Source: Thermoanaerobaculia bacterium
Lineage (GTDB): Bacteria; Acidobacteriota; Thermoanaerobaculia; Multivoradales; JAIOJS01
Direction of reading: 5' to 3'
Assembly (NCBI GenBank): GCA_030429235.1
Contig: JAUIDB010000012.1
Coordinates: 62,001 to 126,000, forward strand
DNA: 64,000 bases
Part shown: one piece after another, positions 26,547 through 32,788 of the stretch
Layout of the letters: each line of letters starts with the position of its first letter
How positions within the stretch are numbered: position 1 is the stretch's first letter
Position numbers and translations under genes: made by a program
The notes under the pieces: model-generated
Databases searched by the model: none
What the model was told of the DNA's origin: nothing
Seen by the model: the letters and a program-made list of their open reading frames with translations, nothing else

Positions 26547-27659
26547 CTAGAGCAGTTCGCTCAGGGGCGTGAAGGCACGGTCCTGGGACTCGGCCACCGG
26601 CGCACAGGTGATCTGGCCACGATAGGTGTTGAAGCCATTCGCCAGATGGTGGTCGCGGCGAGCCGCTTCCTCGGCCCCCAGGTTGGCCAGTGCCAAACAG
26701 TGCTTTAGGGTCGCATTGTTCAGGGCGAAGGTCGAGGTACGAGGCACCGCTCCCGGCATATTGGCTACGCAGTAGTGAACGACGCCGTCGACCTCGAACA
26801 CGGGGTCGGAGTGGGTCGTCGCTCGGGTCGTCTCGAAGCACCCTCCCTGGTCGACGGCCACGTCGACCGCGACTGCCCCCTTCTTCATCACCCCGATCAG
26901 TTCGCGAGTGACCAGCTTCGGAGCCGAGCGGCCCGGGATCAGCACCGCACCCACCAGGACGTCGGCGCGGGTCAACGCCTCCCGAAGATTGAAGGGATTC
27001 GAGGCTACGGTGGTGATGGCACCGTGGAACAGGTCGTCGATAAACCGCATGCGGTCCGCACTCATCTCGAGGATGGTGACACGGGCCCCCATGCCGAGTG
27101 CTACCTTCGCCGCATTCAAGCCGACGATGCCGCCGCCGATGATCACGACGTCACCGGGCGGGACCCCGGGGACTCCACACAACAACGTGCCGCGGCCACC
27201 TTCGAAACGCTGGAGGTAGTAGGCCCCCACCAAGGCGGCCATTCGACCGGCGACCTCGGACATCGGCGTCAGCAGCGGTAGGCCACCGCGGTCATCGGTG
27301 ATGGTCTCGTAGGCAATTCCCGTAACCTCTCGCTCCAGCAGAGCGGTGGTGAGTTCGGGCAGCGGCGCGAGGTGCAGGTAGGTGTAGAGGATCTGGCCCT
27401 TCCTCATCCGCTCGTACTCGGAGGGCATCGGCTCCTTCACCTTGACGATCATCTCCGACGATCCCCAGACCGCGTCTGCGGTGTCGAGAATCGTGGCCCC
27501 GGCCGCGACGTACTCGGAGTCGTCGATGCCACTTCCTTCTCCGGCCCCCACTTCCACGAAGACCTCGTGGCCCTGCTGCGTCAGGGCATGGGCCGTCGCC
27601 GGGATCATGCCGACACGGTACTCGTGGTTCTTGACCTCTCGGGGGACTCCGACCTTCAT
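26547..27659 (-). CDS. ald: Alanine dehydrogenase
   Basis: A 370-residue NAD-dependent enzyme that interconverts L-alanine with pyruvate and ammonia. [20 protein letters not shown] is the classic N-terminus. The Rossmann motif [20 protein letters not shown] lies near residue 175, and [20 protein letters not shown] is the conserved active-site region. Length is standard. ATG overlaps the stop codon of the bactofilin gene as ATGA, so the two are probably translationally coupled. In this peptide-using context it could supply pyruvate and ammonia from alanine. Confidence 0.96.
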
Positions 27660-28105
27660 GACTGGCCCCCGGTCATCTCCACCTTGCCCTTGAAGAACGC
27701 CCCTTCGGCCAGCACGACCCGGGCGGCCTTGACGTCACCCTCGAGGCGGCCCGACGGCATGATCTCGACCTTGCTGGCGCCCTGGACGTTTCCCACCACA
27801 CGGCCGGAAATGACCACGTTGTCGGCCCGCAGATCGCCCTTGACGATTCCGCCTGCGGCCACGGCCACCGAGTTGTCGACCTCGACGGTACCGACGATCT
27901 CGCCTTCGACCTGAAGGTCACTGGTACCGGTGACCTTCCCCTCGACTCGGCAGCCGGCCGCGATCGTGGTCTGGCTGACGCTCCGATTTCCCGACGCCAC
28001 TGGGGCGGTAGGAGGAGCGGCCGGGCGCCGGGGGGCTGGCGCGTTGGGAGTGGGCGCGGGCGTAGGGTGGGTGGCGGGAGGGTCGTCGCGGCGAAAGATG
28101 GACAT
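27656..28105 (-). CDS. Bactofilin (polymer-forming cytoskeletal protein)
   Basis: A 149-residue bactofilin. The Pro/Ala-rich N-terminal tail (about 1-40) precedes a beta-helix core: [60 protein letters not shown] and [20 protein letters not shown]. Bactofilins assemble without nucleotide into filaments that localise wall-synthesis or motility proteins. The stop overlaps the start of ald by ATGA. The upstream neighbour is tRNA-Gly on the same strand. Confidence 0.95.
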
Positions 28106-28169: not shown

Positions 28170-28245
28170 TGGAGCGGGCAACGGGACTCGAACCCGCGAC
28201 ATCAAGCTTGGGAAGCTTGCACTCTACCAACTGAGTTATGCCCGC
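28170..28245 (-). tRNA. tRNA-Gly (anticodon CCC), CCA encoded
   Basis: On the minus strand GCGGGCA pairs with TGCCCGC as the acceptor stem, followed by discriminator T and an encoded CCA. The D-arm contains AGTTGGTAGAGT. The anticodon stem CAAGC/GCTTG encloses TTCCCAA, giving anticodon CCC for GGG codons. The T-arm is CGGGTTCGAGTCCCG. All arms pair, so it should be functional. It lies 64 bases upstream of the bactofilin gene. Confidence 0.97.
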
Positions 28246-28711: not shown

Positions 28712-29626
28712 TCAGGGCTGGTCGGCCGCCTCCAACTGCGCCTCGCGGTCGCGCCGCTCCGCCAGTTCGATCGCCTGCTCCCGAGCCAGACCTACCAGGC
28801 TGGCTACACGCTTTCCCGGCAGGATAAAGCTGTGCAACGCGCTGAAGGGCGAGCCCTGGCCGAAGAAACCACTCATCGGCCCCATGCCGAAGCCGCTGGC
28901 CGAATCCTCACCGGCGCGCGAGTAGATGGTGGTCAAGGCGCCGACCGGCCGGCCTTGCAGGTCGAAGACGGGAAGCCCGAAACCACCCAACTCGCCATCT
29001 ACCATCCAGGCTGCTCGCGGCTTGCGCAGCATCCCGGACACGCGCGCCGAAGCCAGGTGGGAGGCATCATCGAAGCTTCGACCGAGGCGCTGGACCTGCA
29101 GTACCTTCTCCCCTACCGCCAGATCTGCCGCCGCCGCAAAGTCGACGAAGGGTAGCGACTCCTCGGGGACGGCCTCCAATTGGATGAAGGCCAAGTCGAG
29201 GGCCGAGTCCGTCGCCGCCAGAAAAGCCGGCAGTTCCTCGCTACCGATCTGGACGGTGAACGCTGTCGGCGTGATCTCCATCTTGAAGCCGTTCGACTGC
29301 CCCATGTCGGCCAGCATCTCGTTGAGCCGGCTCGAGGAGATGCTCGCATTCCACAGCATGATCAGACCCTCGGGATGCACGATCGCCCCCGTGAGGTCCA
29401 TGCGGGACTCCTCCTCCTGACCCTGGCCCGCCATGCTCATCTTGGCCGCCACGACGGTCTCGACGCGCACGATCGCTTCCTCGTGCTGAGCCAGGGCCCG
29501 ACGCCAGGCCTCCGCCTCGTCCATCCCCCAGGCCGGCAGCGCGATGGCCAGCAGCAGACATCCCACCAACCCATCGACCGATCGCTTATATGACGCAGCT
29601 CGGCCGAGACACTCAATCCGACGCAT
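28712..29626 (-). CDS. Secreted HtrA/trypsin-fold protein lacking catalytic His and Ser (pseudoprotease)
   Basis: A 304-residue exported protein starting at MRRIECLGRAASYKRSVDGL, with signal peptide VGCLLLAIALPAWG. The ORF-track start lies 42 codons upstream inside the HtrA gene. Its layout follows an HtrA protease domain. GAIVHPEGLIMLWNAS sits where HtrA has GVIL..G.VLTNYHV, so the His is lost. ALDLAFIQL keeps the Asp (about residue 144). GGFGLPVFDLQGRPVG sits where HtrA has GNSGGPLV, so the Ser is lost. No PDZ domain follows. It overlaps the 3' end of the active HtrA gene by 14 bases, which suggests co-expression and possibly a partner or inhibitor role. Confidence 0.7.
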   Translation of the reverse strand: MRRIECLGRAASYKRSVDGLVGCLLLAIALPAWGMDEAEAWRRALAQHEEAIVRVETVVAAKMSMAGQGQEEESRMDLTGAIVHPEGLIMLWNASISSSRLNEMLADMGQSNGFKMEITPTAFTVQIGSEELPAFLAATDSALDLAFIQLEAVPEESLPFVDFAAAADLAVGEKVLQVQRLGRSFDDASHLASARVSGMLRKPRAAWMVDGELGGFGLPVFDLQGRPVGALTTIYSRAGEDSASGFGMGPMSGFFGQGSPFSALHSFILPGKRVASLVGLAREQAIELAERRDREAQLEAADQP

Positions 29627-31685
29627 AGGAGTCCTTCCATTCGGGCTCGACGAACACGAAGTGGGTTCGGTAGCCGCGTTGCACGAAAATCTCGACCCGG
29701 GGTGGGCGCTCTGATTCCAGACGCCGCGACACCTCGCCGAACGCCGCGACATCGAGCGTGGAATGGCCGTTGATCGACTGGATCAGATCATCGATCTTCA
29801 GCCCGGCCATCTGGCCCCAACCGCCGGTCGCTGCTTCGGTCACCAGAACCCCGCCCTGCTCTCGATCCCAGCCGTACTGGATCCGGTCGGCGAAGGTCAC
29901 GTCACGGACGACGAAATCGAGCGTCTCCTGCCGGGCGGTATCAGCTTCGTCAGCATCTCGAGGTCGGGGTTCCATCCGCACGGCGATCTCGCGTACCGCA
30001 CCGTCTCGCACCACGCTCAAGCGAGCGGGCTCTCCGATGGTCCGTTCCTCGACCAGGCGCCGAAGGTCCTCGCTCTCCTGTGATCGCGTCGGCTCGGTCG
30101 GCTCGCCGTCCACCGCGATGATCACGTCGCCCACCTGCACCCCGGCGGCCGCAGCCTCGGTCCAGGGAAACACCTGCGACACCCGAAAGCCGGTCTGCCC
30201 CGCGAGGCCCAGCGACACCGAAAGCTCTCTGGTGAGCACTTGCGTCTCGATCCCGAGCCAGGCTTTTGGCAGTTCCCCACCCCAGCCGCGGTTCTTGTCC
30301 GCGGGAGCTGGTACCAGTGTCACCAGAAGCTCGTCCCCGCGCCGGAATTCGATCAGGGCCTTCTCTTGCCCCACCAGACCCTCGATGGCGCGCGCCAGCG
30401 TACCGACCGCACCGATCTCCTGCCCGTTGATCGCCAGCAGTACGTCGTAGGCCGCCAACCGGGGGCGGGCACCATCGGCCGGGGATCCCGGACGAATGCT
30501 GTTGAGCAGTAGCCCGCGCTGATCCGGAAAACGGCGCGTGATGGCCATCGGACTCGTGATCTCCTGCACCGCAACCCCGAGGCTCTCGACCTCCCACTCT
30601 TTGCCCTTGAAGCGCGGCATCGGCTCGATCGTCGCCGCGAGGTGTAGCGCTGCTCCGTCTCGCTCGACCGCGAGGTCTACCACCGTCCCCGCCGGATAGT
30701 CGGCAATCTTCTGATACACGAGCGGTACTTCCTCGAAGAACAGGGTTTGTACAGGCTCGCCGTCCAGGCTGAGCAGGAGGTCACCGGGCTCGAGACCGGC
30801 GGTGGCCGCGGCAGAACCGGCGAGAACCGAAGAGACCAGGGCTCCCTCTCGCCGCCCCGCCTTCGCCACGGGAAGGATCGAGATTCCGAGCCAACCGCGC
30901 TCCACCTGCCCCAGCTCGAGCGCCTGACGGAGAACGTCGGCGGCGATGGAGGCGGGTATGGCGAAGCCGATCCCTCGACCTCCCAGCTCGTTGATGCCCA
31001 CCACTCGCCCCTCTTCGTCGACCAGGGGTCCGCCCGAGTTGCCGGGCAGGATCAGCGCATCGTGTTGGATCCAACGCGTCAAGAGCCCACTGAGCTGGTC
31101 CGGCTCGAGCGTCATCTCCTCGATCTCGGTGCCCGTGAAGTCGGTGAACACCCGGGCCTGGTTGGAGACGATGCCGCGGGTCATCGAGGACGACAGCGAG
31201 AGGGGATTCCCCATGGCGAACACCGTATCGCCCACGGCCAGGAGGTCATCGGACGCCAGCTGTGCCGCCGGGAAGGTGGCCTTCGGGTCCTCCGCCAGCA
31301 GCCGCAGGACCGTCAGGTCGGTCAACGGATCGTCGACCACGATCTCGGCCGGAAGCACCCGGCCATCGGTCAACGTGCACTCGACCCGGATGGCGCCTCC
31401 GGCAACGTGGTAGTTGGTGAGCACGTGTCCGTCATCGGTCAGGATCACCCCGCTGCCGGCCCCCGGATAGCGCTGAGTTCTCCCGTCGACGAACCGTTCG
31501 TAGACGACCCGAATGTTGACGAGCGCCGGGTAGACGCTCTCTCGCACCCGATGCGCTACGGCCTCCGCCGTCGCCGCCGGCTCGCTGCTCTCGACCAGCT
31601 GCGAGGAAACCGGAGCGATCGCCGCCGTCAGGGCCACCACGGTAGACACGGCGCACCGCGCTACGCCCCTCGTGGCCCGGTGCAC
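29613..31685 (-). CDS. HtrA/DegP-like serine protease with an apparent four PDZ domains
   Basis: A 690-residue exported protease. The signal peptide is within residues 1-28 (VSTVVALTAAIAPVSS). The catalytic triad is intact: His93 in TNYHV, Asp123 in LTDLTVL and Ser217 in GNSGGP. After the protease domain I see four PDZ-like modules. They begin near GWLGISILP (about 262), ESLGVAVQEI, AWLGIETQVL and FVVRDVTFADRI, each with a carboxylate-binding G-x-G-I/V-like strand and a DxLLxxxG-type turn. DegP has two PDZ domains and DegS one, so four is unusual. It should act in the periplasm on misfolded or C-terminally tagged proteins. Its stop overlaps the pseudo-HtrA gene. Confidence 0.9.
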   Translation of the reverse strand: MHRATRGVARCAVSTVVALTAAIAPVSSQLVESSEPAATAEAVAHRVRESVYPALVNIRVVYERFVDGRTQRYPGAGSGVILTDDGHVLTNYHVAGGAIRVECTLTDGRVLPAEIVVDDPLTDLTVLRLLAEDPKATFPAAQLASDDLLAVGDTVFAMGNPLSLSSSMTRGIVSNQARVFTDFTGTEIEEMTLEPDQLSGLLTRWIQHDALILPGNSGGPLVDEEGRVVGINELGGRGIGFAIPASIAADVLRQALELGQVERGWLGISILPVAKAGRREGALVSSVLAGSAAATAGLEPGDLLLSLDGEPVQTLFFEEVPLVYQKIADYPAGTVVDLAVERDGAALHLAATIEPMPRFKGKEWEVESLGVAVQEITSPMAITRRFPDQRGLLLNSIRPGSPADGARPRLAAYDVLLAINGQEIGAVGTLARAIEGLVGQEKALIEFRRGDELLVTLVPAPADKNRGWGGELPKAWLGIETQVLTRELSVSLGLAGQTGFRVSQVFPWTEAAAAGVQVGDVIIAVDGEPTEPTRSQESEDLRRLVEERTIGEPARLSVVRDGAVREIAVRMEPRPRDADEADTARQETLDFVVRDVTFADRIQYGWDREQGGVLVTEAATGGWGQMAGLKIDDLIQSINGHSTLDVAAFGEVSRRLESERPPRVEIFVQRGYRTHFVFVEPEWKDSYASD

Positions 31686-31765: not shown

Positions 31766-32788
31766 TCAGCCGCCCGTCAGAAGGTTGCCGAGGCCACCGA
31801 CATGATCGAGAACCGACCCCTCGCCCTGACGGCGACCACCGGTTTGCGGAGCCGCGGCAAAGACCCGGCTGGCCAGTCGACTGAAGGGGAGGGACTGAAT
31901 CCAGACCTTGCCGGGTCCGGTCAGCGCAGCGTAGGCGATCCCCTCACCGCCGAACAGCGCCGTCTTGATCCCGCTGACGAATTGGATGTCGTAGTCGACC
32001 GAGGATTCGAAGGCCACGAGGCAACCGGTATCGAGACGCATCGTCTCGCCGGCGGCCAGCTGTCGCTCGACCACGGTTCCACCGGCATGAACGAAGGTCA
32101 GACCATCCCCTTCCAGCTTCTGAAGGATGAACCCTTCACCGCCGAACAGACCGGCCCCGAGCTTCTTCTGGAAGGCGATGCCCACCGACACCCCCTTGGC
32201 CGCACAGAGGAAAGCGTCCTTCTGGCACAGCATGGTGTTGTTGTGCTGCTGCAGGTCGAGGGCGACGATCCGACCGGGATAGGGAGAGGCGAAGGCCACC
32301 CGCTGGCGGCTGTTGCCGACGTTGCCGAAGGCGGTCATGAAGAGCGACTCTCCCGTCAGAACCCGCTTTCCCGCCGACATCACCATGTCCATGATTCCGC
32401 CCTTGCCCTTGGACTTGGCGGAGCCGTCACCGAAGATGGTCTCCATCTTGATCCCCGGATCCATGTACATGAAGGCACCGGCCTCGGCGATACAGGCCTC
32501 GCTCGGGTCGAGCGTGATCTCGACGAATTGGAGCTCCTCGCCGAAGATCTCGTAGTCGATCACGTCGGCTGACTCGGTCGGCGGCGGTGGTGGAACGGCC
32601 GGCGCGCTCCGTAGCGTCGAGGAGAACTCCGACCGACTCGAGATCGGCTCCCAGTTGGCCATCCCCTGGGCAAAGACATGGGCGCTGCGGTCGATCGCAC
32701 CTGCCTGCAGCTTCTGCTGGATCTCGGCTGTCGTCCACGGCCCCTGCTGCTCACCGTTGACCGCTACGTACCAAGTCTGTCCACTCAT
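31766..32788 (-). CDS. GYF_2 - AIM24 (TIGR00266-like) fusion protein
   Basis: A 340-residue soluble protein. Residues 1-55 are a GYF_2/DUF4339 domain ([20 protein letters not shown]), which in other proteins is a small docking module. A proline-rich link ([11 protein letters not shown]) follows. Residues about 80-310 are AIM24 family: [51 protein letters not shown] and [23 protein letters not shown]24 domains form beta-sandwich trimers; bacterial function is poorly defined, and the human-yeast namesake acts in mitochondria. It stands alone between HtrA and the divergent aldolase gene. Confidence 0.85.

Follow-up and report, generated by a model that had tools for sequence, protein, structure and literature searches.

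The HtrA gene and its inactive neighbour

The window, which is the whole 64,000-nucleotide stretch of DNA analysed here, contains two overlapping genes on the minus strand. The first (29613..31685, with a GTG start at 31685) encodes an active HtrA of 690 amino acids, in which a signal region is followed by a protease domain and four PDZ domains. An earlier note on this DNA had assigned to the protein a triad of His93, Asp123, and Ser217 and four PDZ modules; the three residues are present in the protease domain (amino acids about 40-258; 30912..31568, minus strand), and four PDZ domains are recovered by both Pfam and AlphaFold. The Pfam search returned a Trypsin_2 domain (E value, 1.4e-29) plus four PDZ stretches, and the AlphaFold model, built with 13 aligned sequences (mean pLDDT, 83), displays one protease domain and then PDZ modules at about residues 268-352, 363-459, 479-570, and 583-679. 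The modules make up PDZ1-PDZ2 (amino acids about 268-459; 30309..30884, minus strand) and PDZ3-PDZ4 (amino acids about 479-679; 29649..30251, minus strand), the latter being carried by the downstream gene in a second architecture described below. A trypsin-like domain with the His-Asp-Ser triad followed by PDZ domains places the protein in the HtrA/Deg (S1C) family. Its best NCBIfam match is the DegP/Do family TIGR02037 at 354 bits, which is under the 416-bit cut-off, and the match to NCBIfam MamE (182 bits) is far under the cut-off of 800 bits.

The second gene (28712..29626, minus strand, with an ATG at 29626) encodes a secreted HtrA-fold protein of 304 amino acids, which together with its relatives is here named psi. 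The 14-nucleotide overlap between the two coding regions (29613..29626, minus strand) had been noted earlier without mention of the strand and stands as described. A GGAAGGA motif (29632..29638, minus strand) lies within the HtrA gene, 5 nucleotides ahead of the psi ATG, and is a putative ribosome-binding site. The N terminus of psi, read from its sequence, resembles a secretion signal. A Trypsin_2 match of 34.7 bits exceeds the curated Pfam cut-off of 27.6, and a profile comparison (hhalign) of the psi family with the partner HtrA family gives an E value of 5.3e-9. The predicted structure (AlphaFold pLDDT, 84) ends after the protease fold, and its best PDB matches in Foldseek are all of the HtrA type (E values down to 1.8e-10), including HtrA1, HtrA3, DegS, DegP, DegQ, and the pseudoprotease MamO (5hma); DEG7 or Nma111 entries are not among the PDB matches listed. 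The statement that the second gene encodes a secreted protein of the same fold is thus confirmed, and the prediction did not return an unrelated fold, the outcome that would have spoken against it.

Both catalytic motifs are replaced in psi, as had been claimed. In the window protein, NYHV has become WNAS, in which Ser95 (29342..29344, minus strand) is aligned by hhalign to the catalytic His, and GNSGGP has become GGFGLP, in which Phe216 (28979..28981, minus strand) occupies the position of the catalytic Ser. The triad is intact in 101/101 aligned HtrAs, while the catalytic His and the GNSGGP Ser are missing from 97/97 aligned psi sequences, two sets in which some loci represent the same contig fetched twice, so that the independent sequences are slightly fewer. 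The retention of the Asp, also claimed, holds for the window psi (Asp144; 29195..29197, minus strand) but not for the family, in which 65 of the 97 sequences keep this residue; the Asp is thus no family feature. Psi has the HtrA/Deg fold but lacks the catalytic His and Ser, and it is a pseudoprotease rather than an enzyme of the HtrA/Deg family. Against TIGR02037 it scores 20 bits, under the 416-bit cut-off, and two psi proteins without PDZ domains that were scanned reached no NCBIfam cut-off, with Pfam seeing the trypsin-like domain only; the link to HtrA is therefore probably missed in annotation.

The loss of catalytic residues could indicate a pseudogene in decay or an open reading frame that arose by chance. 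Selection and conservation data refute this reading, to which we give practically no credence: dN/dS of psi is 0.09-0.18, near the value of its active partner (0.08-0.14), the family is conserved in three phyla, and the fold is confidently predicted.

Recurrence and co-inheritance of the pair

The psi and PDZ3-PDZ4 alignments were too divergent to serve as queries in a wide scan, for which the HtrA alignment alone was therefore used. Across 84,980 species it identified 80 four-PDZ HtrA loci, 77 of which had enough downstream sequence to be informative. A psi gene lies directly downstream on the same strand in 70 of these 77 loci, and each of the remaining seven belongs to a genome with exactly one four-PDZ HtrA and one psi elsewhere. 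A scan of genome contigs with a single psi protein as the query gave no match.

Recurrence of the pair in related genomes, on which the earlier note had made its reading depend, was found. Psi is present in 15 of the 72 genomes of the same order, and the PDZ3-PDZ4 module is present in 13 of those 15; a contig end truncates the HtrA of the remaining two. Among 396 genomes of the phylum, the identical 14 genomes carry psi (E values up to 5.7e-12; the best other hit, at 1.2e-11, is a partial-model match that looks like an ordinary HtrA) and PDZ3-PDZ4 (E values below 1e-60; next best, 8e-44). A strong PDZ3-PDZ4 match (E values up to 4.2e-63) was obtained in 42 of 294 planctomycete genomes, of which 39 exceed the psi threshold and 2 more (G521, locus L197; G671, locus L198) have a psi recognized next to the module by inspection. 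The sole clear exception among the 42 is G696, in which psi was not found and which encodes two different four-PDZ HtrAs (L199 and L201). Two further planctomycetes, G582 (L200) and G626 (L205), have a psi with neither an adjoining HtrA nor a strong PDZ3-PDZ4 match. These genomes are probably incomplete, and the G696 loci, as HtrAs without a detectable psi, are a useful natural control. In the phylum of one armatimonadete, psi occurs in 72 of 291 genomes. The pair therefore spans Acidobacteriota, Planctomycetota, and Armatimonadota according to public record titles, a few of which (Saprospiraceae, Deltaproteobacteria) probably denote mislabelled draft genomes. Recurring in dozens of genomes, the pairing is more than chance.

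Copy number varies at some loci. In two planctomycete records (L113:5549-10639 and L114:6919-10144), a lone four-PDZ HtrA is followed downstream by a tandem array of four psi genes, a fifth copy being located at another place in the genome, and L120 has two psi genes.

The surroundings of the pair are less constant. In the window, a gene for GYF_2 fused to AIM24 (E value, 2.9e-72) lies upstream of HtrA on the same strand (31766-32788, minus strand) and is shared with close relatives only, as are the other flanking genes, including the one for bactofilin (27656-28105). The window's sole tRNA gene (28170-28245, minus strand), for tRNA-Gly (ccc), is located between the bactofilin gene and psi. 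Comparison of neighbours across phyla recognized no conserved gene besides HtrA and psi; the largest clusters in this comparison resemble shadow frames of HtrA and psi.

A shared operon is by itself no proof of interaction, and psi might perform an unrelated periplasmic job and merely be co-expressed with HtrA. The two planctomycete genomes that have psi without an adjoining HtrA would fit such a role. We regard it as very improbable, because co-inheritance holds where the genes are unlinked (7/7 genomes) and because one PDZ pair switches from one gene to the other, as set out below.

Exchange of a PDZ pair and a proposed two-subunit machine

A second architecture, [protease-PDZ1-PDZ2][psi-PDZ3-PDZ4], is present at about 18 clean loci, comprising four acidobacterial genomes (G331, G129, G315, and G292) and further planctomycete loci, and it occurs side by side with the window architecture in several planctomycete genomes. 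Both architectures keep PDZ1-PDZ2 on the active protease. In the second, the pair borne by psi scores higher with the PDZ3-PDZ4 model than with the PDZ1-PDZ2 model, and the pair borne by the protease shows the reverse. The inventory thus remains constant despite the exchange, at one live protease, one dead protease, and four PDZ domains. One locus (L195:4807-8439) contains a frame of 1,210 amino acids that fuses protease-PDZ-PDZ to psi-PDZ-PDZ; its linker includes a complete psi signal peptide and its PDZ2 is shortened, so it is probably a frame artefact and not a bacterial DEG7.

Phylogenetic analyses by two tree-building methods placed all psi domains in a single clade (SH, 1.0; SH-aLRT, 100), which indicates a single origin. 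The active domains from the two architectures likewise formed one clade that is separate from ordinary DegP (SH, 0.997). PDZ3-PDZ4 copies from both architectures clustered together (SH, 0.965; SH-aLRT in IQ-TREE, 96, with two long-branched ordinary DegP rows included), which marks them as one and the same module. Loci with the window architecture form a single clade in the protease (99) and PDZ1-PDZ2 (95) trees, where the second architecture needs more than one change. For this reason, the trees suggest an order of events in which catalysis was lost from a tandem copy of a DegP-like gene before the PDZ pair shifted to the active gene. The couple is ancient and under purifying selection.

The exchange of a domain between adjoining proteins at a constant inventory provides a Rosetta-stone type of argument, drawn from sequence comparison, for a physical complex. 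Since the co-occurrence of the two genes is near exact and a PDZ module changes genes, we argue for such a complex and think it rather probable that the pair encodes one secreted hetero-oligomeric HtrA machine, with psi as its obligate noncatalytic HtrA-fold subunit. The predicted fold of psi, the strict division into active and dead partners, and the overlap of the genes with its putative internal ribosome-binding site speak for the same reading. The two proteins would bind each other stably, the catalytic subunit contributing the protease and PDZ domains and the second subunit contributing psi without catalysis. By analogy with the inactive protease domain within the single chain of plant DEG7, psi may act as an assembly and regulatory platform that sets the oligomer and places PDZ3-PDZ4 beside the active trimer; MamO, which activates MamE-dependent proteolysis (PMC4794232), offers a second precedent. 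Access of substrates to the catalytic subunit, or its activation, would thereby be controlled by psi in the periplasm. Points against this one-machine reading are G696, with its two HtrAs and no psi found, the unaccompanied psi genes of G582 and G626, and the strong divergence of psi from HtrA, given which the trimer interface may not be retained. The suggestion that an inactive paralogue translated together with its active counterpart could be a regulatory subunit, a substrate adaptor, or an inhibitor is strengthened by the co-occurrence, the PDZ exchange, and the purifying selection.

Chaperone activity is known among HtrA-fold proteins, and psi could instead be a substrate adaptor or holdase chaperone that stands outside the oligomer structure, its dead cleft and mobile loops catching unfolded envelope proteins and passing them to HtrA. 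The four tandem psi genes per single HtrA at L113 and L114 would fit interchangeable client-binding subunits. We nevertheless consider this account unlikely, as the presence of PDZ3-PDZ4 on either gene is easier to reconcile with a fixed complex than with a transient adaptor. A switch of the MamO kind, in which short-lived binding of psi to HtrA would cause allosteric activation or inhibition of the protease, has a precedent in the dead HtrA-fold protein MamO, which is needed for MamE-dependent proteolysis (PMC4794232) and which is among the structural matches of psi. However, psi has neither the metal-binding histidines nor the transporter domain of MamO, and the near-strict co-inheritance together with the PDZ exchange favours a stable subunit, which leaves the switch distinctly unlikely. 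Metal binding of the MamO type was rejected for psi, whose invariant columns contain no His. We infer that psi is a noncatalytic scaffold or regulatory subunit of a split "double HtrA."

Comparison with known active and inactive HtrA systems

HtrA proteases are textbook homo-oligomers, and DegP is one with two PDZ domains. The protease domain and PDZ1-PDZ2 arrangement of the active subunit resembles that of DegP/DegQ (Do family, TIGR02037), whereas the system described here has four PDZ domains and a dedicated inactive partner, and its HtrA scores below the family cut-off. Protease rings that mix active and inactive subunits, as ClpP/ClpR does, also have an inactive paralogue as an obligate partner; they differ in being ATP dependent and of an unrelated fold. 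The Pfam domain PDZ_1 (PF12812), which we take to be typical of Nma111-type proteins, is matched by two psi proteins (29.9 and 28.6 bits against a cut-off of 28); an ordinary DegP also matches it at 22 bits, below the cut-off. The pair does not form a single polypeptide in the manner of DEG7/Nma111, as two genes are present in essentially all loci.

The principle of an active HtrA joined to an inactive one is already known. The earlier note had known of no described system of this form, a statement that needs correcting, since both MamE/MamO (PMC4794232) and plant DEG7 (PMC3473262) embody the same principle. The described active/inactive pairs that we found are the proteases of magnetosomes and eukaryotic fusion proteins, DEG7 among them; the openly licensed literature searched yielded no two-gene, secreted, and widespread form in which a PDZ pair is exchangeable. 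In magnetotactic bacteria, which have MamE/MamO and paired MamEs, MamE-dependent proteolysis needs MamO, and pairing of this type has evolved repeatedly (PMC4794232). The likeness to our gene pair lies in the genetic pairing of an active HtrA with an inactive HtrA-fold protein. MamO differs in its C-terminal transporter domain, its metal-binding di-histidine, and its location in the magnetosome island; psi has neither the domain nor the di-histidine.

The closest parallel in domain composition is with plant DEG7 (Deg/HtrA clade III), a single chain of the order PD-PDZ-PDZ-PDia-PDZ-PDZ with active and inactive protease domains, the latter reportedly involved in trimerisation (as cited in PMC3473262). 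Active and inactive HtrA domains and four PDZ domains are likewise present in both architectures of the gene pair, and the second architecture, read over both genes, gives the exact DEG7 domain order. In contrast, DEG7 is one eukaryotic polypeptide, whereas here the genes of two secreted bacterial proteins overlap, and all four PDZ domains of the window pair reside on the active subunit. We tentatively put forward the possibility of a bacterial "split double HtrA," a hetero-oligomeric protease of three phyla that combines a catalytic HtrA subunit with a dead one and has a PDZ pair that either can carry, whose [protease-PDZ-PDZ][psi-PDZ-PDZ] form may be a bacterial relative or even a forerunner of eukaryotic DEG7/Nma111. 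If this is true, the conserved two-gene form would make the dead HtrA subunit a general means of controlling periplasmic proteolysis. As the partners are not fused, what the inactive domain does, be it as a scaffold, activator, or adaptor, is directly testable by omitting one subunit, which is less simple with the fused DEG7.
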